From Sulfurimonas sp. (GTDB lineage: Bacteria > Campylobacterota > Campylobacteria > Campylobacterales > Sulfurimonadaceae), in assembly GCF_026196735.1 (NCBI RefSeq), contig NZ_JAPHUF010000003.1, positions 1 through 64,000 of the forward strand: 64,000 nt of DNA, in the 5' to 3' direction. A model generated the notes under the pieces. That model worked only from the letters and a program-made list of their open reading frames with translations, was not told the DNA's origin and made no database searches. Shown here piece by piece: positions 43,634 to 55,612 of the stretch. Position 1 is the first letter of the stretch. Each line of letters opens with the position of its first letter. Made by a program: the position numbers and the translations under genes.

Positions 43634-45019
43634 TTACTCATGCAACTTTTTTTCTATAAAATCCATATCTATATGTTTGCTCACATGCTTGGCGAAGTTT
43701 TTGATGGCTTTTGCTTTGTACTTTTTGAAGTTGTAACCCTTGTATTTTGGGTTAATTTTTGAGAAAAGATGATGACGAATCTCGTCTGAATCAAAAAGCC
43801 CGTGAACAAATGTCCCGTAGAAATTTTTTCTTTTTTTAGACCTTTTTTCAGCAAATTCGTTGTGTATTTCGTAGCCATCGACCATATGACCAAAAAGATT
43901 GTAAGTACCTTTTTGAACTATTTTCTCTTTAGCAAAGATTACTTCACCTTTTATGCGTCCAAAACCTGCTATTTCTTTTTGTTCAGACTCAATTTCCAAA
44001 GGGTCAAGAATCATCTCAAACATCATCTCATAACCGCCACAAATTGCTACTATTTTTTGCTCTTTTGAACTAAGTTTTTCTTCAAAACCTCTCTCTCTTA
44101 ACCATGCCAAATCATCTACGACCCTTTTGCTTCCGGGTAAAACCACCAAATCACATGTTGACATGTCACTTGCGTTTGAGATGAAAGACAGCTCAACTTC
44201 TTCGTCTACAACAAGAGGCTCAAAATCTGTAAAGTTACTGATGTGTGGAAGTTTAATAACTCCAACTTTTATTAGAGCATTTGTTGTGTTTTGGATATAG
44301 TTCATCATAGAAGCACTATCTTCAAAACCAAGGTTAAAAGGCTTAAATGGCACAACGCCTAAAACATTTATGCCAAATCTCTCTTCTATGATCTGCACGC
44401 CTTCATCAAAAAGTGACATGTCACCTTGAAACTTGTTGACAATGACACCTATGACATTTTCTCTTAACTTGGGCGGAAGTAGTCTGTAAACACCGTAAAT
44501 GGAAGCAAAAACACCGCCTCTTTGTATATCTGCAACTAAGATGATTTTTGTGTTAAACTCATCTGCAATGTAAATGTTTGAGAGGTCTTTGTGCATCAAG
44601 TTAAGTTCAACAGGACTTCCGGCTCCCTCTGCAACCACACATTCATATTCATTGCGAAGTTTTTTAAAGGCTTTTTTAACATGTGGTTTTAAAGTGTCAA
44701 TATCACGATAATATTCAAGCACATCTTTGTTGCCTACGCTTTTGCCGTTGAGAATCATATGCGCTTGTGAATTTCCGCCTGACTTTAAAAGAATAGGGTT
44801 CATATCTGTAGTTGTCTTTAGACCAATTGCTTCTGCGGCAAAGTGTTGAGGTATAGCTATCTCCCCGCCACTGTCAGCTACTTGAGAATTGTTAGATACA
44901 TTTTGAGCTTTAAATGGCGCCACTTTTATGCCACGCTGATGCAAAAGATAAGTTATTGCAAAAGAAAGTGTTGATTTTCCAGCGTCAGAGCTTGTTCCGA
45001 AAATGCTAAGTGAGTTCAT
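43634..45019 (-). CDS. cobQ: Cobyric acid synthase CobQ
   Basis: A 461-residue glutamine amidotransferase that amidates the corrin ring side chains. The N-terminal P-loop-like synthetase domain reads FGTSSDAGKSTLSFAITYLLHQRG, with FKAQNVSNNS and the later AEGAGSPVELNL; the C-terminal GATase domain has VVLPGSKRV, the catalytic Cys in ICGGYEMM and the His in GTFVHGLFD. Its presence means the strain handles cobyrinate-level intermediates, not only cobinamide. Three 41-bp inverted repeats lie directly upstream. Confidence 0.95.
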   Translation of the reverse strand: MNSLSIFGTSSDAGKSTLSFAITYLLHQRGIKVAPFKAQNVSNNSQVADSGGEIAIPQHFAAEAIGLKTTTDMNPILLKSGGNSQAHMILNGKSVGNKDVLEYYRDIDTLKPHVKKAFKKLRNEYECVVAEGAGSPVELNLMHKDLSNIYIADEFNTKIILVADIQRGGVFASIYGVYRLLPPKLRENVIGVIVNKFQGDMSLFDEGVQIIEERFGINVLGVVPFKPFNLGFEDSASMMNYIQNTTNALIKVGVIKLPHISNFTDFEPLVVDEEVELSFISNASDMSTCDLVVLPGSKRVVDDLAWLRERGFEEKLSSKEQKIVAICGGYEMMFEMILDPLEIESEQKEIAGFGRIKGEVIFAKEKIVQKGTYNLFGHMVDGYEIHNEFAEKRSKKRKNFYGTFVHGLFDSDEIRHHLFSKINPKYKGYNFKKYKAKAIKNFAKHVSKHIDMDFIEKKLHE

Positions 45020-45039: not shown

Positions 45040-45162
45040 GCTATGTTAAATTTTTTTAGTTTTTTTAACATATCACTAAAGCTATGTTAAGATTTTATAA
45101 TTTTTTTAACATAGCTTTTTTCTATGTTAAACTATATGCCTTTTTGTAACATAGCAAATAGT
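45040..45162. repeat. Three 41-bp tandem units, each an inverted repeat GCTATGTTAA / TTAACATAGC
   Basis: Half-sites alternate in orientation at 45040, 45065, 45081, 45106, 45122 and 45146, with a period of 41 (40) bp. Each unit can fold into a hairpin with a T-rich loop. The last half-site overlaps the codons for Ala-Met-Leu-Gln at the C-terminal end of the fic gene. Possible roles are terminator array, operator or recombination site. Confidence 0.8.
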
Positions 45163-46199
45163 TGAGAGTTAATAAAATATTTACTATTTTTTATTTGAAT
45201 GCTTTTCATTATTTCAAGATGCTCTAATTCTTTTAAATATTTTGATGCTGTTTGCCTAGTAATACCCAATTTATCAACCAAAAAATCAATTTTTGTGTAG
45301 GGATGCATAAATAAGATTTCTATCAAATCTTTACTATAAATTTTAGGTAGTTTCTCTTTTACCTCATCTGTTGTTTTTTCCATAAGGTTGTTTATACCTT
45401 CCACCAAGTTTATAGTCTCAATTGAAGTCTGCTCAACTCCATCAAGCATATATAAAATCCATTCTTCTAAAGCATCTTTAGTTCTAACTTCTTGAAGCAG
45501 TCTGTAATAATCATTTTTGTTTTTAATAATGTAACGACTTAAGTACAAGATGGGAATATCTAATAAACCTTTTAAGATGAGATACAAGATATTTATAATC
45601 CTGCCAGTTCTCCCATTTCCATCATAAAAAGGGTGGATACTTTCAAACTGATAGTGAATAATCGCCATATTCACAAGCGGGTCATTGTCATTTGGCTCGT
45701 TAATAAACTTTTCAAGATTGTCTAAAAGATTTTGAATAGTTTCATAATTTTGCGGTGGAGTAAAGACTACTTCTCCGGTCTGTGCATTTTTAAGATTTGT
45801 ACCACTTTGACATCTAACACCAGCACCATTTTGCTCTAGTTCTTCCTGAATTTTTACTATGTATTTTTTTAGAAGGAGGTGATTCTCTTTAACTAAGTCA
45901 AACCCCTTTAAAAGAGCAAAAGAGTAATTTTGCACCTCTTTAGCTTCATTAGTTATATTCGAAATGTCAATACTTGCACGGTAAAGCTCATCATGAGTAG
46001 TGATAATATTTTCAATCTCACTACTGTCTTTAGCCTCTTGCAAAACCAAAGAGTTTATCAAAATAGCTTGGTTAGGAATAATTTTGGCAACACCGTTTAG
46101 CTTCGCCAAAGCCCTATTTGCAGAGATGGTTTTTTTTAAGACTTTTATTGTTTCTATGGTTTGCGGTATGGGTAAGTTTTTTGGGATAAACTCTGTCAT
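45132..46199 (-). CDS. Fic family protein, class II (self-inhibited), with C-terminal wHTH
   Basis: A 355-residue Fic protein that probably transfers AMP to target proteins. The catalytic motif is HPFYDGNGRTGR (His189). The N-terminal inhibitory motif SxxxEN is visible as SSEIEN (residues 59-64), which marks class II Fic proteins whose activity is blocked in cis. The last 75 residues form a winged helix (KIDFLVDKLGITRQTASKYLKEL), so it may bind DNA, perhaps the adjacent repeats. It overlaps the RhuM-HNH gene by 4 nt. Confidence 0.9.
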   Translation of the reverse strand: MTEFIPKNLPIPQTIETIKVLKKTISANRALAKLNGVAKIIPNQAILINSLVLQEAKDSSEIENIITTHDELYRASIDISNITNEAKEVQNYSFALLKGFDLVKENHLLLKKYIVKIQEELEQNGAGVRCQSGTNLKNAQTGEVVFTPPQNYETIQNLLDNLEKFINEPNDNDPLVNMAIIHYQFESIHPFYDGNGRTGRIINILYLILKGLLDIPILYLSRYIIKNKNDYYRLLQEVRTKDALEEWILYMLDGVEQTSIETINLVEGINNLMEKTTDEVKEKLPKIYSKDLIEILFMHPYTKIDFLVDKLGITRQTASKYLKELEHLEIMKSIQIKNSKYFINSQLFAMLQKGI

Positions 46200-47194
46200 A
46201 ATAGTTTTAGCTCCTCTGAGATATCTTTTATTAATTTACTAAGTGGTCGCTTGTTTATGTCATTATCGTTAACATAACCACATGTTACGAGTCTAAGTAA
46301 GTCTTCACGATTTTTAAAAAGTGTTCCTTCGTATTTTTGCATCAGCTCATCGAGGTAACTATCGTTGTAGATTTCTCTTTTTTGAAGTAATTCAGCGATT
46401 ATATCTTTATGCTCATCATATAGATTTTTTAAGTTAAATACTTCTATATGTTTTTCTACTTTTTCTTTATTATTTATAGCTTCAATATCAAATATTACCC
46501 TTTTAGAATCTAAAAAATCTATTTTTTCATTTTTTGTTATTGATTTTATACCCTTATATTTAAACTTTGCACTATCATTAAAACTTTCAGTGTATGGGTA
46601 AAAGATATTTTCTTTTTTTGATGATTTTCTCTGGTTACATGTAGAGCAACTAGGAACTAAGTTATATAAGCTAACTGCAAGATATGGATAATCTTTTTTG
46701 TCAAAAAAATGGTCAATACTTTGGTAAATTCTTCTCTCGCTTGTACGAATAGAACGAACACGCTCAAGTAGCTCTTTGAAGTAGTCTTTACCAAAGTATT
46801 GACCATTTTTAAGTCTATCATCATCCATGGCAAAACCTTTAATGATAAACTCTTTTAAGGTGTTTGTTGCCCAGATACGAAACTGTGTGGCTTCTTTAGA
46901 GTTGATTCTGTAGCCTACGGCTATAATCATGTCAAGATTATAATATATTATCTCTCTTTGTACTTCTCTATTACCTTCCTTTTGAACATGTGCAATATTT
47001 GCACATGTTGAATTATCAAGCTCCTCATCAGATAGAATATTTTTAATATGTTTTGTAACAACCGTTCTGTCAACACCAAAAAGGGTAGCTAATTGCTTTT
47101 GTGATAACCAGAATGTTTCATCTTTATAAATTATGTCAACATTTATATTTGTTAGAGGTGTTTTATAAAAGATTATTTTATTTCTCTTTATCAT
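46196..47194 (-). CDS. RhuM-HNH chimeric protein
   Basis: A 332-residue protein made of two halves. Residues 1-155 are the N-terminal part of a RhuM protein (WLSQKQLATLFGVDRTVVTKHI, GYRINSKEATQFRIWATNTL, LLERVRSIRTSERRIYQ). Residues about 157-195 (IDHFFDKKDYPYLAVSLYNL, then VPSCSTCNQRKSSK) are the second part of an HNH nuclease, followed by an HNH-protein-type C-terminus (NREDLLRLVTCGYVNDNDINKRP). The HNH catalytic DH and N are present but the first zinc Cys pair is absent. It may be a functional fusion or the scar of a deletion joining two genes. Confidence 0.75.
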   Translation of the reverse strand: MIKRNKIIFYKTPLTNINVDIIYKDETFWLSQKQLATLFGVDRTVVTKHIKNILSDEELDNSTCANIAHVQKEGNREVQREIIYYNLDMIIAVGYRINSKEATQFRIWATNTLKEFIIKGFAMDDDRLKNGQYFGKDYFKELLERVRSIRTSERRIYQSIDHFFDKKDYPYLAVSLYNLVPSCSTCNQRKSSKKENIFYPYTESFNDSAKFKYKGIKSITKNEKIDFLDSKRVIFDIEAINNKEKVEKHIEVFNLKNLYDEHKDIIAELLQKREIYNDSYLDELMQKYEGTLFKNREDLLRLVTCGYVNDNDINKRPLSKLIKDISEELKLL

Positions 47195-47230
47195 GTTGAT
47201 TTTCCTAATTATTCTTTTATTTTTCCGATT

Positions 47231-47293
47231 TTAGCAAAAAGAAGTTGTATATTTTGCTGAAAAATCTATGATCTCATTTGCACTGCGCTTCAT
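47231..47293 (-). pseudogene. Truncated partner of the RHH antitoxin (20 codons)
   Basis: An ATG overlaps the antitoxin stop (TGATG) and opens a frame of 20 residues beginning MKRSANEIIDFSAK before a stop. The overlap is the usual toxin-antitoxin coupling, so this is likely the remaining 5' end of a toxin gene. The family is not identifiable. Confidence 0.35.
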
Positions 47294-47508
47294 CAAAGAT
47301 CTATACCGTCCCAAAAGTCTTCATATGTCAGATTTGTCATCGCATTTTCATTTTCTAAGTTTTTCTCTAGTAGTTTTTTTTGCTCTTTTTCAAAGTATTC
47401 TTCAAGGGCTTCGTTCATTATAGTGCTAAAATCTTTTTTGAGTATCTCGCTAAAGTTCTCTAGGTTCTCAAGGTTGTCACTGCTAAGTGTAAAGTTTCGT
47501 TTTTGCAT
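47293..47508 (-). CDS. Ribbon-helix-helix-type antitoxin, orphan
   Basis: A 71-residue protein with an N-terminal RHH-like segment (KRNFTLSSDNLENLENFSEILKKDFSTIMNEALEEY) and an acidic C-terminal tail ending YEDFWDGIDL, the layout of CopG-like antitoxins whose tail binds a toxin. The expected toxin gene downstream is only 20 codons long, so it seems to be an orphan. Confidence 0.6.
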   Translation of the reverse strand: MQKRNFTLSSDNLENLENFSEILKKDFSTIMNEALEEYFEKEQKKLLEKNLENENAMTNLTYEDFWDGIDL

Positions 47509-47532
47509 AGTTAATATTGTACCTAAATGTAT

Positions 47533-47955
47533 CTATTTTAAATGGCAGTTTTTCATGATTTTTTTCCAATCAAGGTCGAAGGTTTTTTTTACATATGCTT
47601 TGTGATGGGGAACGGTGCATTTTGAGCAGTCTTGATGAATCACACCATTGTTTGCAAATTTGCTTCCGTTATTTATATCGCATTTACTGAGTATAGTATA
47701 TTCGTTATATTTTCCGACGCCTTCATCGTTAAATCTAAAATGCGGACATGCACAAAGATAGCAGTTTAGTTTTTCCATGTCATGACACTTTACAGGCTCT
47801 TTATACAGAGGACAAAAATCATTTTCTTCTTTTACCATGTTGTCAAAGTCAAAATACTCTATTATTTCATCTTCACTCAAACCGCGTGCCAACAGCTTAT
47901 CTACAATTTTTTTATGTTTGTTCGCATGTTCATTAAACCATTCTATGTAACTCAT
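47533..47955 (-). CDS. Cysteine-rich small domain protein of the corrinoid locus
   Basis: A 140-residue cytosolic protein. A helical N-terminus (residues 1-45) is followed by a Cys-rich domain: FCPLY, KLNCYLCACPHFRF, SKCDIN and DCSKCTVPHH. This matches the zf-like Cys-rich small domain (PF04071 type), which is often encoded or fused with cobamide biosynthesis genes in methanogens. It probably binds a metal or an iron-sulfur cluster. It overlaps btuC by 4 nt, so it is coupled to corrinoid uptake. Confidence 0.75.
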   Translation of the reverse strand: MSYIEWFNEHANKHKKIVDKLLARGLSEDEIIEYFDFDNMVKEENDFCPLYKEPVKCHDMEKLNCYLCACPHFRFNDEGVGKYNEYTILSKCDINNGSKFANNGVIHQDCSKCTVPHHKAYVKKTFDLDWKKIMKNCHLK

Positions 47956-49643: not shown

Positions 49644-52013
49644 TTACGCCACTTTTTGCATGTACAGATATTTTTGAAACTCAATAAACAGCGAACTAAT
49701 GCCTGCAACATCTCCTAAGATCTCTTTTGCATCTTCTAAAGACTGGTATTTGTTCGTAAGTAAAATCGGGAGTTTTTCTTGTGCCAGTTCTTCTACTCCT
49801 GTTTCAATGTACTGAGTCAGTACAAACTCAATAAACTCTTTTTGCTTGTCGTTAAGGAGTGCCAAAATTGTTTGTTTCGCGTCATTTACTCTTGCTTGTC
49901 TGCTTATCGGTTTTACATCGCTGTTAAAAACATATTCCAAAACATCAAACAAGTCACTTTGCTCTGCATTTACAAGTTTTTTCAGAGTATTAAGCTCCTC
50001 TTTGCCAAATCCTGCTTCATCGAGTTTTTGGAGTAAAGTTTTTCTAGTGAGCGGATGACTCCAAAGCTCTCGTAACTCCTCTTCGTTGGCAAAAAAGTTA
50101 GGTAGTTCTCCAAAAAGGTTTTGCAAGAACTCTTCGGCAGAAATCGGTTTACCATCGGCACTCCAAAAAGAAGTAGCCATCATGTGTTGTATTTCAAGCT
50201 CTTTGCCGTTTTTAAGCTTTACTTTCACTTTCTTTTTACAGACACATGGTTTTTGTCCACATTTTTGACAAAGCTGAGGCGGTTTTGGTGGAGTTGGTGG
50301 AACTTTTTCACAAATACAAGGTTTCTCATTGCATTTACTACACGCTTCTTCTTCAACAGGTTCCCCATCCCACTCAGGGTCTGAAAATCTCTGGTAAGCA
50401 TCTACAAAATCATAAATCGTAAAAAACTCTTTGCCATCATATAGCCTTGTTCCACGACCTACTATCTGTTTAAACTCTATTATCTGATTTACTGGGCGCA
50501 TAAGCACGATATTTCGTATATTTCTCGCATCTACTCCGGTTGAGAGTTTTTGTGAAGTTGTTAAAACAGTCGGTATAAGTTTTTCATTGTCTTGAAACTC
50601 TCTTAAAAACTGTTCTCCTATTTCACCGTCGTTGGCTGTCACTCTTACACAGTAGTTGGTGTCTCTGCTACTCTTTTTATTTTGGTTTACAAGGTCACGA
50701 ACCAAAGCAGCATGTTCTTGTGTGGCACAGAAAATGATGGTTTTTTCATTTTCATTTGCCTCATTCATAAAAATTTTTACTCTCTCGTTTTCTCTTGCGA
50801 TTATCTCAATGCTCTTGTTGAAATCTTCCTCTTTGTAGAGTTTTCCCTCTTCAATCTCACCCTCTATGATGTTGTCATCGCTGGTAAAAATGTAATCATC
50901 AAGTGTTGTTTTGATACGCTTGACTTTAAAAGGTGTTAAAAATCCGTCGTTGATTCCTTCTTTGAGCGAGTAGATAAAAACAGGCTCTCCAAAATATGCG
51001 TAAGTGTCCACATTGTCTTTGCGTTTTGGTGTAGCTGTAAGCCCGAGTTGAACGGCAGGGGAGAAATACTCTAAAATCGCTCTCCAGTTCCCCTCATCAT
51101 TTGCTCCGCCTCGATGACACTCATCTATAATGATAAAATCAAAGTAGTCTTTTGGGTACTCTCCAAAGTATGGTTCACTCTCTCCCTCTTCGTCAGTTCC
51201 GCTCATAAACGACTGAAAGATGGTAAAAAATATACTTCCATTTGTAGGAACTTTTTTACTCTTTTTTATCTCTTTGGGTTTTATGCGAACCAGTGCATCT
51301 TCTGGAAATGCCATAAAAGAGGAAAAAGCTTGGTCTGCTAGTATATTTCTATCTGCCAAAAACAAGATGCGTGGTCGTCTCTGCCCGTCTCGTTTTAAGT
51401 TCCATCTTGTGTGAAAAAGTTTCCATGCTATTTGAAAAGCGATGGCTGTTTTTCCTGTTCCTGTTGCAAGGGTAAGAAGTATGCGATTTTTGTTTTTTGC
51501 TACGGCTTCGAGTGTGTTTTTTACCGCTAACTCTTGGTAGTAGCGAGGTTGCCAACTTCCACTTTTGCTCTCAAAGGGCACAGAGCTAAATTTATCTCGC
51601 CATTCGTTTTGATCGGAGTAGGTTTTTTCCCAAAGCTCATCAGGTGTTAAAAAGTTCTCTACCAACTCTTCTCTTCCGGTTTTAAGGCAGATGCTATAAA
51701 TCTCTTTTCCGTTTGTGGAGTAGGTGGTCTCAAGTTGAAGTTTTTGTGCATAAAGTTTTGCTTGTGCAACTCCTTCGCCCACATCAAGCAAGCTACTTTT
51801 AGCCTCAACAACAGCGAGTTTAATCCCTTTATAAACCAAAATATAGTCAGCTATAAGCGGTTTAGCACGACCTCCGCCAACCTGAATGCGACCGTCAGTT
51901 ATGCGACAAACATCTCTCTCACGAAGTACTTTAGAATCTTCAATTTCTCCCCAGCCACATGCAAGAAGTTTTGGGTCTATAAGTTCGGCTCTTGTCTCTG
52001 CTTCATTCATCAT
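49644..52013 (-). CDS. hsdR: Type I restriction enzyme HsdR subunit
   Basis: A 789-residue motor and nuclease subunit. The N-terminal nuclease domain shows ADYILVYKG and the PD-(D/E)xK element VVEAKSS. The helicase core has LTLATGTGKTAIAFQ (Walker A), IIDECHRGG, LGLTATPKR and QIVGRGTRLYDG. A Cys-rich insert with two CxxCxxxPCxC units (near residue 570) precedes the C-terminal HsdM-contact domain of the EcoEI type. It is the last gene of hsdM-rhuM-hsdS-hsdR and overlaps hsdS by 4 nt. Confidence 0.93.
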   Translation of the reverse strand: MMNEAETRAELIDPKLLACGWGEIEDSKVLRERDVCRITDGRIQVGGGRAKPLIADYILVYKGIKLAVVEAKSSLLDVGEGVAQAKLYAQKLQLETTYSTNGKEIYSICLKTGREELVENFLTPDELWEKTYSDQNEWRDKFSSVPFESKSGSWQPRYYQELAVKNTLEAVAKNKNRILLTLATGTGKTAIAFQIAWKLFHTRWNLKRDGQRRPRILFLADRNILADQAFSSFMAFPEDALVRIKPKEIKKSKKVPTNGSIFFTIFQSFMSGTDEEGESEPYFGEYPKDYFDFIIIDECHRGGANDEGNWRAILEYFSPAVQLGLTATPKRKDNVDTYAYFGEPVFIYSLKEGINDGFLTPFKVKRIKTTLDDYIFTSDDNIIEGEIEEGKLYKEEDFNKSIEIIARENERVKIFMNEANENEKTIIFCATQEHAALVRDLVNQNKKSSRDTNYCVRVTANDGEIGEQFLREFQDNEKLIPTVLTTSQKLSTGVDARNIRNIVLMRPVNQIIEFKQIVGRGTRLYDGKEFFTIYDFVDAYQRFSDPEWDGEPVEEEACSKCNEKPCICEKVPPTPPKPPQLCQKCGQKPCVCKKKVKVKLKNGKELEIQHMMATSFWSADGKPISAEEFLQNLFGELPNFFANEEELRELWSHPLTRKTLLQKLDEAGFGKEELNTLKKLVNAEQSDLFDVLEYVFNSDVKPISRQARVNDAKQTILALLNDKQKEFIEFVLTQYIETGVEELAQEKLPILLTNKYQSLEDAKEILGDVAGISSLFIEFQKYLYMQKVA

Positions 52014-53182
52014 AACTCTCCGTTAAATGCTTTTTGTAAGATAGATTTTTTTAGTTCGTTTAAGTCTTGGAGTTTTTGTTCGTAGATGGATTCTAGTTTT
52101 TTTGTTTGTTCTGAAAGGGTGTCTAGTTTTTTTACTATTGTTTGTTGGGTTTTTAAAGGTGGATATGGAATAGGTATTTTATTTAATTTAGTTTGATTTA
52201 GCTTAGGTTGAGCCATCCCACTTATAAAATCATCTAAACTTATTGAATTAAGGTATAACTCAACAAATTTTTGACTAATAATATTGTCAAATCTTAAAAC
52301 ATGAGCATGATTATTTACCCAAGTTTTTCCAGAAATAGAAAATGCTATTGGATATTTTCTTACTACAAGATTTGCACCATCTTCAGAGATGCAAAGTAAG
52401 TCTTCATCAAATAAATAATCAGCAACATAGTCAACAATTCCAGATGCTCCATAATAAGGTATTTTGCCTTCGGATCTAATATTCTTTGTTATTGGAATTC
52501 TTTTATTATCTAGATTTTCGGAAATTTCATTCAATGTTTTTTCTTCCCAACCCTCACCTTTATTCTCAAACACGCTTTGCAAATAGCTCTCAAAAAGTTC
52601 TTTTGCATTTTTTAGGTTCAGCTCGGCATTTGCTTTTGCCTTGTCAATGGCAAAAAAAGCCTCATCTAAAATGGCTACTATTTTTTTTTGTTCTTGGAGT
52701 GGTGGAAGTGGAATTTCAAAGTTTTTAAACTTATTCATTGAAACACCTCCAATAATACCAACTAACTCAGAGAAAAATTGTTCTTTAAATGTTTCACTAA
52801 AATAAAAATAATAAGCAAATTTACTATCAATATCTTTGTTTGTTATAAGAGCAAATAATTTATTTCCAAAACATACATCTTGATTTGTAAATCCTATTTT
52901 TTTTCCAGCACTTCCTCCCTCTGCACATATTAAAATTGTATTTTTAGGAGCAATTTTGAAAGTTGATTTATCCTCAAATGGAATTTTAATACCATTGTCA
53001 TAATCAATTTTATTAGTGTAACTAATATCTTTAGTTGCTATGTAATAGTATCCATTTTCAATATTTGTATATTTTTCTTTTTTTACTTTTGCATTAATGC
53101 TGTTACCGTTAAATATCTTTCCTATTTCAGATAATTTCCTAACTTTCCACCCCTCTCTCAAAACTCTATCCACGAGATTCAC
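52010..53182 (-). CDS. hsdS: Type I restriction enzyme specificity subunit HsdS
   Basis: A 390-residue DNA-recognition subunit with two target-recognition domains (about residues 12-150 and 210-350), each followed by a conserved helix: PLPPLQEQKKIVAILDEAF and PYPPLKTQQTIVKKLDTL. The target sequence is bipartite but cannot be read. The start is GTG at 53182 or the better spaced GTG at 53170 (MDRVLREGW). It overlaps the rhuM gene. Confidence 0.92.
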   Translation of the reverse strand: MNLVDRVLREGWKVRKLSEIGKIFNGNSINAKVKKEKYTNIENGYYYIATKDISYTNKIDYDNGIKIPFEDKSTFKIAPKNTILICAEGGSAGKKIGFTNQDVCFGNKLFALITNKDIDSKFAYYFYFSETFKEQFFSELVGIIGGVSMNKFKNFEIPLPPLQEQKKIVAILDEAFFAIDKAKANAELNLKNAKELFESYLQSVFENKGEGWEEKTLNEISENLDNKRIPITKNIRSEGKIPYYGASGIVDYVADYLFDEDLLCISEDGANLVVRKYPIAFSISGKTWVNNHAHVLRFDNIISQKFVELYLNSISLDDFISGMAQPKLNQTKLNKIPIPYPPLKTQQTIVKKLDTLSEQTKKLESIYEQKLQDLNELKKSILQKAFNGEL

Positions 53183-54164
53183 CTAAAAGTTGTTTCAACT
53201 CTTCAAGCTCTTTAAGGTCGGTCTCTTTTGCTTCTTCTATTTTTCTTTTTTTATCAAACTCTGCGTAAATTTCTCTTACTTTTTCTCTCATTATTTCGCT
53301 AGTGATAGAACCATAACCTTTTAGGATTTTTTTGTCGTTAAAATCTAACATCTTGTCTACATTTTCTCTCCAAAAATCCATGGTAATGTCTTGTCTGTTT
53401 TTTACTCTCAGTTCTGCCGTTTCTAAAAAGATAACGACTAAACGGTTAAGTGTGTCTATCTCATCAGCGGTGAGATAGTTTTTCGCTATGAAAATATCTT
53501 GTTTTCTTACAACAGAACCCTGCCAAGAGGTAAGAGCCATGTTTGGTTCATCTTTTGAAGCTCGTGATAGTATCAGCTCTGCGGCAGTTTTGTCGGTCAC
53601 TGCGTAGATAAGTTTGTTTTGAGTCTCGGCAAAAAACATATGAGTTGCTTTGTCTGTTTTGTCATAGTCACTACTAAGAGAAAGCAGATCTCTCACTTTT
53701 TGGTAAAAGCGTTTTTCAGATGCACGAATATCACGGATGCGTTCTAAAAGTTCATCGAAATAGTCAGCTCTTCCGTTAGGATTTTTGAGTCTTTCATCAT
53801 CCATCACAAAACCTTTAACCATGTACTCGCTCAAGTTTTTGTTAGCCCAGATTCTAAACTGTATTCCTCGTTTACTTTGTACTTTAAAACCAATGGCTAA
53901 AATCATCTCTAAAGAGTAATGAGTTACCTTGTAATTTTTGCCATCAGAGGCAGTTGTTAAGTAATCCTTAACAACTGAATTGGCCTCTAATTCTCCATCT
54001 TTTAGGACTTTTGAGATGTGCATACTTATATTTGGAACCGAGGTGTCAAAAAGTTGAGCAATCTGATTTTGGTTCATCCAAACCATGCCGTCTTTTGCAT
54101 AAAGTGCTACAGAAGCTTTACCGTCTACTGTGTTGTAGATGATGATGTTTTGCTCTTGATTCAT
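53166..54164 (-). CDS. RhuM family protein within type I R-M operon
   Basis: A 332-residue RhuM (virulence RhuM) protein. An N-terminal helix-turn-helix-like part reads WMNQNQIAQLFDTSVPNISMHI, followed by IGFKVQSKRGIQFRIWANKNL and LLERIRDIRASEKRFYQKV, and a death-on-curing-like C-terminal region (NYLTADEIDTLNRLVVIFLETAE). It overlaps hsdM by 4 nt and hsdS by 17 nt, so its expression is tied to the R-M genes. Its function is unknown. Its N-terminal half is related to that of the RhuM-HNH chimera at 46196. Confidence 0.88.
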   Translation of the reverse strand: MNQEQNIIIYNTVDGKASVALYAKDGMVWMNQNQIAQLFDTSVPNISMHISKVLKDGELEANSVVKDYLTTASDGKNYKVTHYSLEMILAIGFKVQSKRGIQFRIWANKNLSEYMVKGFVMDDERLKNPNGRADYFDELLERIRDIRASEKRFYQKVRDLLSLSSDYDKTDKATHMFFAETQNKLIYAVTDKTAAELILSRASKDEPNMALTSWQGSVVRKQDIFIAKNYLTADEIDTLNRLVVIFLETAELRVKNRQDITMDFWRENVDKMLDFNDKKILKGYGSITSEIMREKVREIYAEFDKKRKIEEAKETDLKELEELKQLLGESRG

Positions 54165-55612
54165 AACAAACCTCTTATAGTTTTCAAAATCTCTTCACTC
54201 TCTTTATCGAGTTTCGCCATAGCTTTTAAAATTTCATTAGGTTCTCTCAGTGGAGCAACTTCGGGAGTATTTGGATTTTTGGCACTCAAATCATAAGTTG
54301 TTTTGTCAATCTCTTTCATGTCAAGCGTCCAAGAATTTTCACTTTGTTTTTGTGTTTTTTGAAACTCTACAAACTCATTTAAATCTTTTTGGTTTAACGG
54401 ATTTGTTTTTCCTAGATTTCTCTCTAAGTTCAAAGAGTAAAACCACACTTTTTTGGTACTTTCTCCTTTGTCAAAAAATAGCACAACTGTTTTTACCCCA
54501 GCTCCGGTAAAAGTTCCAGCAGGCAGGTCTAAAACTGTATGTAAGTTGCATGAAGTGAGTAACTCTTTTCGTAAAGCTATCGAAGCATTATCTGTATTGC
54601 TTAAAAAAGTGTTTTTTATGACAATTCCCGCTTTTCCGTCTGCTTTTAGTATCTTTATGAAATGTTGCAAAAATAAAGAGGCAGTTTCACCTGTTTTTAT
54701 GGGGAAGTTTTGTTGAACTTCTGCTCTTTCTTTTCCGCCAAAAGGGGGATTTGCCAAAACTACATCATAGCGGTCTTTTTCCTGAATATCTGCAATATTT
54801 TCAGCAAGCGTATTTGTATGTATGATATTTGGCGCTTCGATACCGTGGAGTATCATGTTCATGATGCCGATGATGTAAGCTAAAGACTTTTTCTCTTTGC
54901 CGTAAAAGGTGTTTTTTTGCAGAGTTATTATGTCGTTGGTTGTTAGCTTTTTACTTTTTTTGAGATACTCAAATGCTTCTACTAAAAATCCAGCTGAACC
55001 TACCGCACCGTCATAAATGGTTTCGCCGATTTTAGGATTGACTACTTTTACGATGGTTTTTATAAGAGCTCTTGGTGTGTAGTATTCTCCGCCGTTACGC
55101 CCTGCATTTCCCATGTTTTTGATTTTGCTCTCGTACAAGTGGCTCATTTCATGTTTTTCTACATGTGTTCTAAAGCGAAGCTCGTCAACATAGTTTATTA
55201 CTTCTCTGAGGTTGTAACCGCTTTGAATTCTGTTTTTGAGTTCGCTGAAAATTTCACCGATTTTATACTCGATGGTGTCTGCATTCACAGCATTTGCTTT
55301 AAACTTTTTAAAGTAAGGAAAAAGTTTGTTGTTTACAAAATCACTGAGGTCATCACCGCTGAGAGCATCATGGTCGATTTTGCCGTTTGGTAGCTTTGGA
55401 GTTGCCCAAACACTCCACTGAAACTCTGGTGCGATGATAGTTTGGTAAGTATTGCCGCTTAGTTGAGCTGATGTTTCTTTGTCTTTTTCCAAGTCGTCAA
55501 GGTATTTTAAAAACAAAACCCAAGAAGTTTGCTCAACATAGTCAAGCTCACTTCCGCATCCTGCATCTTTGTGGAGTAGGTCGTCTATATTTTTAAAAGT
55601 TTGTTCAAACAT
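54161..55612 (-). CDS. hsdM: Type I restriction enzyme methylase subunit HsdM
   Basis: A 483-residue N6-adenine methyltransferase subunit. An HsdM N-terminal domain (residues 1-140) is followed by NGGEYYTPRALIKTIV, the SAM motif DGAVGSAGFLVEAF and the catalytic NPPF motif in VVLANPPFGGKER. It is the first gene of the operon, 55 nt after btuF. Methylation also protects the host if HsdR is active. Confidence 0.95.
   Translation of the reverse strand: MFEQTFKNIDDLLHKDAGCGSELDYVEQTSWVLFLKYLDDLEKDKETSAQLSGNTYQTIIAPEFQWSVWATPKLPNGKIDHDALSGDDLSDFVNNKLFPYFKKFKANAVNADTIEYKIGEIFSELKNRIQSGYNLREVINYVDELRFRTHVEKHEMSHLYESKIKNMGNAGRNGGEYYTPRALIKTIVKVVNPKIGETIYDGAVGSAGFLVEAFEYLKKSKKLTTNDIITLQKNTFYGKEKKSLAYIIGIMNMILHGIEAPNIIHTNTLAENIADIQEKDRYDVVLANPPFGGKERAEVQQNFPIKTGETASLFLQHFIKILKADGKAGIVIKNTFLSNTDNASIALRKELLTSCNLHTVLDLPAGTFTGAGVKTVVLFFDKGESTKKVWFYSLNLERNLGKTNPLNQKDLNEFVEFQKTQKQSENSWTLDMKEIDKTTYDLSAKNPNTPEVAPLREPNEILKAMAKLDKESEEILKTIRGLL

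Follow-up and report, generated by a model that had tools for sequence, protein, structure and literature searches.

A chimeric rhuM-hnh reading frame beside fic in Sulfurimonas, probably a fold-back deletion scar in a defence-type gene cluster

Results

Genes and features of the locus

The window, a stretch of 64,000 nucleotides of Sulfurimonas sp. DNA, carries on its minus strand an open reading frame in which the N-terminal half of a RhuM protein is followed by the later part of an HNH nuclease. It lies in a variable interval, with the following features.

47533-47955, minus strand: gene for a zf-like small protein (Pfam zf-like match below cut-off), upstream edge of the variable interval
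47293-47508, minus strand: gene for a 71-aa Arc/ribbon-helix-helix-like protein, adjoining rhuM here and in genome G004
46196-47194, minus strand: chimeric ORF of 332 aa, open throughout, with an in-frame join
46721-47194, minus strand: rhuM-derived half, from the start codon to codon 158 (Pfam, PADLOC and DNA homology)
46787-46810, no strand assigned: inverted-repeat arm within rhuM, at codons KNGQYFGK, which have counterparts in the rhuM genes of relatives
46717-46720, minus strand: 3-4 nt of filler, reading AGTA on this strand, in the gap between the two homology ends
46705-46728, no strand assigned: inverted-repeat arm spanning the junction, a perfect 24-bp match
46199-46716, minus strand: hnh-derived half, residues 161-332 (DNA alignment), with the stop codon at 46196-46198
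45132-46199, minus strand: intact class II Fic (SoFic-like) gene (Pfam and PADLOC), overlapping the chimera by 4 nt
43634-45019, minus strand: gene that we take from its sequence to be cobQ-like, downstream edge of the variable interval, adjoining the variable region in relatives too

A preliminary description of this DNA had proposed a RhuM N-terminal half joined in frame to the later part of an HNH nuclease that keeps DH and N and lacks the first Cys pair, in a gene overlapping a class II fic gene. These points are borne out by the agreement of Pfam, PADLOC and DNA homology on the two halves, by the alignment with intact HNH relatives, and by the 4-nt overlap together with the domains and the N-terminal SSEIEN of the Fic protein. 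A promoter scan was uninformative, with 15 promoters against 12.6 expected and zero terminators.

The Fic protein contains Fic_N, Fic and SoFic-like_C domains (Pfam) and matches SoFic in PADLOC (9.6e-119); it scores 402.9 bits against the NCBIfam SoFic equivalog and does not reach the cut-off of 550. Its translation contains HPFYDGNGRTGR and the N-terminal SSEIEN, which we read as motifs fitting class II; a Fic motif, an N-terminal inhibitory motif and a SoFic-like C-terminal domain are found together, as in class II Fic (SoFic) proteins. The 71-aa protein matches the Arc-like repressor family phrog_3180 (1.5e-4) and could be an orphan regulator or antitoxin. Its gene stands apart from rhuM in G030.

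The RhuM half

The N-terminal part of the chimera matches PDC-S05 (RhuM) over residues 3-165 (PADLOC, 1.1e-69) and Virulence_RhuM over residues 62-165 (Pfam, 5.4e-45), the latter covering only positions 1-103 of 252, and the full-length RhuM profile (PF13310) is not spanned. A Bro-N match reaches 21.2 bits, under the Pfam cut-off of 25.6. By these matches the half is assigned to the RhuM family and carries its predicted Bro-N-like DNA-binding part. Its best identity to RhuM proteins of the genus is 64-66%.

When compared with a full-length relative of the chimera's rhuM, two further RhuM-type genes in the same genome are 42% and 46% identical, and the sole full-length match among them, at 53214-54152, is the 42% one. 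The intact RhuM at 53166-54164 of the window covers positions 1-250 of the 252 of the Pfam profile. It belongs to a type I restriction operon (49644-55612) with the order hsdM, rhuM, hsdS and hsdR, so that rhuM lies between hsdM and hsdS.

Other arrangements of the RhuM N-terminal domain were also observed. A third one in the same genome, on contig C7 (L003, 1426-2301), has a different C-terminal half, and in L141 (5283-6272) the domain is joined to Fic/Doc (Pfam RhuM 2.7e-28, Fic 2.9e-9).

The HNH half and its intact relatives

Residues 151-331 give a strong PDC-M62B match (PADLOC, 3.3e-56). Pfam HNH stays below its cut-off (16.6 against 21.4 bits), as do the NCBIfam PtuB and TIGR02646 retron HNH models, each under its own. 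Judged by these matches, the HNH parent is the PADLOC candidate PDC-M62B (PtuB/Septu-like). DH, N and CxxCN are kept, as is a conserved C-terminal tail, and the first Cys pair, seen as CPYCNR ahead of the DH strand in intact relatives, is absent. This CPxCNR motif before the DH strand is invariant in all seven aligned intact HNH proteins (C116/C119).

The intact hnh genes L033-L035, from three genomes of the genus, are 85-86% identical to the chimeric half in amino acids and 82-83% in nucleotides, that is, 17-18% different at the DNA level. Each overlaps by 4 nt the AAA ATPase gene that precedes it, and the ATPases of L034 and L059 match PDC-M62A in PADLOC, with PtuA models ranking behind. In the genome of the window no PDC-M62A was detected, while five of five control genomes were positive, and no hnh 5' half, while four of four were positive; each control set includes one genome that supplied the query itself. 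Searched with an intact hnh, this genome gives a match at the window site alone, from query residue 137 on. The AAA ATPase partner gene that belongs to PDC-M62 and Septu is thus not found there.

The last 60 residues or so of PDC-M62B, as seen in L034 (5590-6522), its relatives and the window (46199-46400), are far more conserved than the remainder. Mean amino acid identity is 81% in the tail (36 pairs; nine of 12 rows, the window included) and 39% outside it (28 pairs, eight rows). Three rows without anchor text were left out, and the tails of two or more of these are less conserved. The tail is conserved even though synonymous divergence is high in the majority of the 25 pairs shown, and it may serve to bind an unchanging partner or target.

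The junction and its inverted repeat

On the minus strand, homology to rhuM ends in TTTACCAA, at 46720/46721, in three alignments (L139, L140 and L141; genomes G004, G005 and G030), and a fourth (L144) stops earlier, at 46827. Homology to hnh starts at 46716 with TTGACCA, as seen in the alignment to intact hnh genes. The AGTA between these ends fits neither parent, except that its first A is shared with the rhuM of L141. Together with this filler, the join (46705-46728) forms a 24-bp inverted repeat without mismatch with rhuM sequence lying 58 nt upstream (46787-46810), a feature that the preliminary description had missed. From a fold-back scar one expects bases foreign to both parents that complete an inverted repeat with parental sequence close by, which is what is seen here. 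The repeat is the longest perfect one in the window at loops of up to 200, where only one other of at least 14 was found, itself 14 long, and in 60 simulated 64-kb sequences (first-order Markov, loop 20-200) the longest arm was 15.

For the His of DHFF, the window uses CAT where L033-L035 use CAC. CAT is as expected from copying of the rhuM arm, a detail which is merely suggestive since L007 and L143 share CAT. Both arms are still identical at 24 of 24 positions and the hnh part is 17-18% off its nearest relatives, and by this comparison the scar looks young: the event would be recent relative to the split from L033-L035, unless the hairpin self-corrects.

The locus in other genomes

The zf-like gene has matches in 113 of 135 genomes of the genus, and the interval from it to the cobQ-like gene (47533-47955 to 43634-45019) holds differing defence-type genes across relatives. 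In G053 (L143) these are an ATPase gene and hnh; in G013 (L142), an ATPase gene, hnh and rhuM, with hnh and rhuM as separate genes; in G004 (L141), a RhuM-Fic fusion, the 71-aa gene and rhuM, the only one of the two parents there; in G030, the 71-aa gene, rhuM, a ParE-like gene and fic; and in G123, a YobI-like NTPase gene and fic. G065, where a contig edge intervenes and the zf-like gene was not seen, carries hnh and rhuM.

Among 20 stretches examined, many of them picked for such hits and therefore a biased sample, 12 contain both the zf-like gene and cobQ, and a RhuM, Fic or PDC-M62 match lies between them in six (L138, L139 and L141-L144). L140 has two zf-like genes, and its rhuM is placed outside the nearer one; L146, L147, L148, L154 and L155 have no such match between the two edges, except for a weak ATPase match in L148. 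The interval looks like a turnover site of defence-type genes in the genus (six of 12 intervals, biased sample).

The left flank of the chimera (the 71-aa gene and rhuM) gives a single alignment to G004 (L141) over 46720-47509, and the right flank (the hnh end overlapping fic) a single alignment to G022 (L145) over 45290-46252, at a different site in G022. The full order rhuM, M62A, M62B and fic was found in none of the 20 stretches.

Search for further copies of the junction

The preliminary description had regarded the chimera as the strongest candidate for an undescribed system in the window and proposed its conservation in other genomes as a sign of function. No other rhuM-hnh junction was found among the matches listed for the genus, the family, genome contigs, viruses or plasmids, and a conserved fusion is not seen among them. 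In the genus, at least 88 of 135 genomes match either half at E 1e-5. In the family, which at 228 genomes includes those of the genus searched before, matches listed at E <= 1e-65 come from six genomes, all of genus Sulfurimonas. The best 80 of 160 loci on genome contigs and eight loci on viral contigs were covered, and none of 119 plasmid records reaches 80% coverage of the query; these searches could miss a homologue across the junction if it is weak and distant. Both halves are present in seven of 168 loci, of which four represent the window and the remaining three (L142, and L027 and L152 from one contig) have them as separate adjacent genes; only the four window loci have them in one gene. 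The titles and abstract openings listed from the open-licence literature yielded no report of a RhuM-HNH fusion.

Three matches that seemed to span the junction were rejected. A 36% match in G113 over residues 51-332 falls on a normal ATPase and HNH pair (L150) and is a forced extension, the RhuM half alone scoring 2.4 bits against its HNH protein. The family phrog_10378, matched over residues 66-279, is hit by intact HNH proteins and gives no hit to the RhuM half alone at E 0.1. The match at G034:C51 (residues 4-238, with internal stops) is a RhuM-like ORF (L151) with no hnh match at E 1e-3.

Predicted structure and selection

An AlphaFold model of the chimera (21 sequences) is confident for the RhuM domain only, with block mean pLDDT of 69-93 over residues 21-110. 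In the model of an intact HNH control (7 sequences), 225 of 311 residues fall below 50, no better than the HNH part of the chimera, and the poor model of that part therefore bears no conclusion on a nuclease fold. Foldseek gave no match at E <= 0.001 among 476. In a sequence search of the PDB, the intact HNH profile found 9n69/9n6b (E 0.001), a distant member of the TIGR02646 family, and a single match at E 0.77, and the chimera a chance-level match only (E 0.032).

Against the three relatives L033-L035, dN/dS of the hnh part is 0.04-0.05, with dN about 0.07 and dS at least 1.35, near saturation. This low ratio probably mostly predates the fusion; it fits a gene that was functional until recently and says little on present function.

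Discussion

We consider it probable, at roughly 85%, that the chimeric ORF is a deletion scar inside a defence-gene cluster, produced by a fold-back template switch. The ancestral order would have been the 71-aa gene, rhuM, PDC-M62A (AAA ATPase), PDC-M62B (HNH), fic and cobQ. During copying of rhuM, the nascent strand ending TTTACCAA would have folded onto the complementary TTGGTAAA 58 nt upstream and copied a few bases, AGTA and perhaps up to the following TTGACCATTTTT, before re-landing on the matching TTGACCA in hnh and going on. A single replication error of this kind could delete the 3' half of rhuM, the ATPase gene and the 5' half of hnh, about 2.5 kb as estimated from gene lengths in relatives, and leave one open frame by chance. 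Work on quasi-palindromes in E. coli reportedly describes fold-back copying that likewise completes an inverted repeat. With the first Cys pair and the ATPase partner lost, nuclease function is unlikely and the chimera is most likely dead as a nuclease; at most it would act as a relic that binds DNA, or lead translation into the intact fic gene.

Some observations sit less easily with a scar. The two flanks of the proposed ancestral order come from different genomes (G004 and G022), rhuM is downstream of hnh, not upstream, in G013 and G065, and the ORF is open and in frame at the join, for which the chance is 1 in 3. The hnh part has a low dN/dS, although this probably dates mostly from before the fusion. 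Moreover, a fusion near the edge of the RhuM domain is not absurd, since RhuM N-terminal domains occur with other effectors such as Fic (L141).

The preliminary description had left the choice between a new effector and a recombination scar, and the break points and the inverted repeat favour the latter, while the absence of a second junction among the matches found tells against a new system. It had also taken a junction confined to this strain, with intact parents at the same locus in relatives, as the outcome that would speak against its candidate; at the level of species representatives the junction is indeed single among the matches listed, and in relatives hnh and rhuM are separate genes at the zf-like/cobQ site. 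A functional new fusion, in which the RhuM domain would aim the HNH half at DNA in a toxin or phage-defence unit with the Fic AMPylase, could draw on the open 332-codon frame overlapping fic, on the retained DH, N and CxxCN, and on the RhuM domain joined to Fic at the same site in L141. We hold it to be very unlikely, as the junction is not seen again among the matches listed, the CPxC pair invariant in seven aligned intact relatives is missing, the ATPase partner is undetectable in the genome and, in retron-Eco7 (PMC11555353), growth arrest is seen with PtuA and PtuB together only and not with PtuB alone. It is also quite unlikely, if not to the same degree, that one fold-back switch gave rise to a newborn gene whose fusion is already in use, be it as a DNA-targeted effector, a competitor that engages a target by way of the highly conserved PDC-M62B tail, or a regulator of the overlapping fic. 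If the fusion were functional in either form, a single replication error could create a new in-frame bacterial effector.

The ORF could instead have been retained for its RhuM N-terminal domain, with repressor- or anti-repressor-like DNA binding and the HNH tail as ballast. The confidently modelled block at residues 21-110 and weak matches to phage anti-repressors obtained with the isolated RhuM half are consistent with this, but no second case was found, and we regard it as unlikely. The join could also have arisen in sequencing or assembly, with intact rhuM, ATPase and hnh genes in the true genome, a view that deserves thought since amplification artefacts are known to produce inverted-repeat joins. 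However, neither the ATPase gene nor the hnh 5' half nor a second hnh is detectable elsewhere in an assembly scored 100% complete, where the sole other full-length RhuM is a 42% relative, and the join appears to be a short filler and not the long shared repeat that assemblers confuse; an artefact of this kind is highly improbable.

The feature is thus real but ordinary, probably a young deletion scar in a defence-type gene cluster whose mechanism is unusually readable. A candidate new defence system is struck off, and in its place stands a near base-level account of how decay of a defence cluster can yield a chimeric gene.

Comparison with known systems places the chimera close to several of them. 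With the RhuM family (PF13310; PDC-S05) it shares residues 1-158, the predicted DNA-binding part, but it has no RhuM C-terminal half. Fusions of RhuM to Fic/Doc, among which Doc fusion is called frequent in PMC3710099, and RhuM in restriction operons resemble it in that a RhuM N-terminal domain is joined to another effector domain; in the chimera the partner is HNH, a combination of which we found no second case. Its C-terminal half is a fragment of PDC-M62B, from a system which overlaps Septu PtuAB; a Bacillus cereus survey gives PDC-M62 for 203 of 244 Septu predictions with a PDC duplicate (PMC11811056). Unlike PDC-M62, the chimera has no first Cys pair, no N-terminal half of the nuclease and no detectable ATPase gene. 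As for the mechanism, template switching at inverted repeats is reported to alter coding genes in yeast (PMC8604942), and quasi-palindrome template-switch mutations, as described there, resemble the present case in that fold-back copying completes an inverted repeat. The difference is that the switch here would also have skipped about 2.5 kb, and so created a gene fusion.
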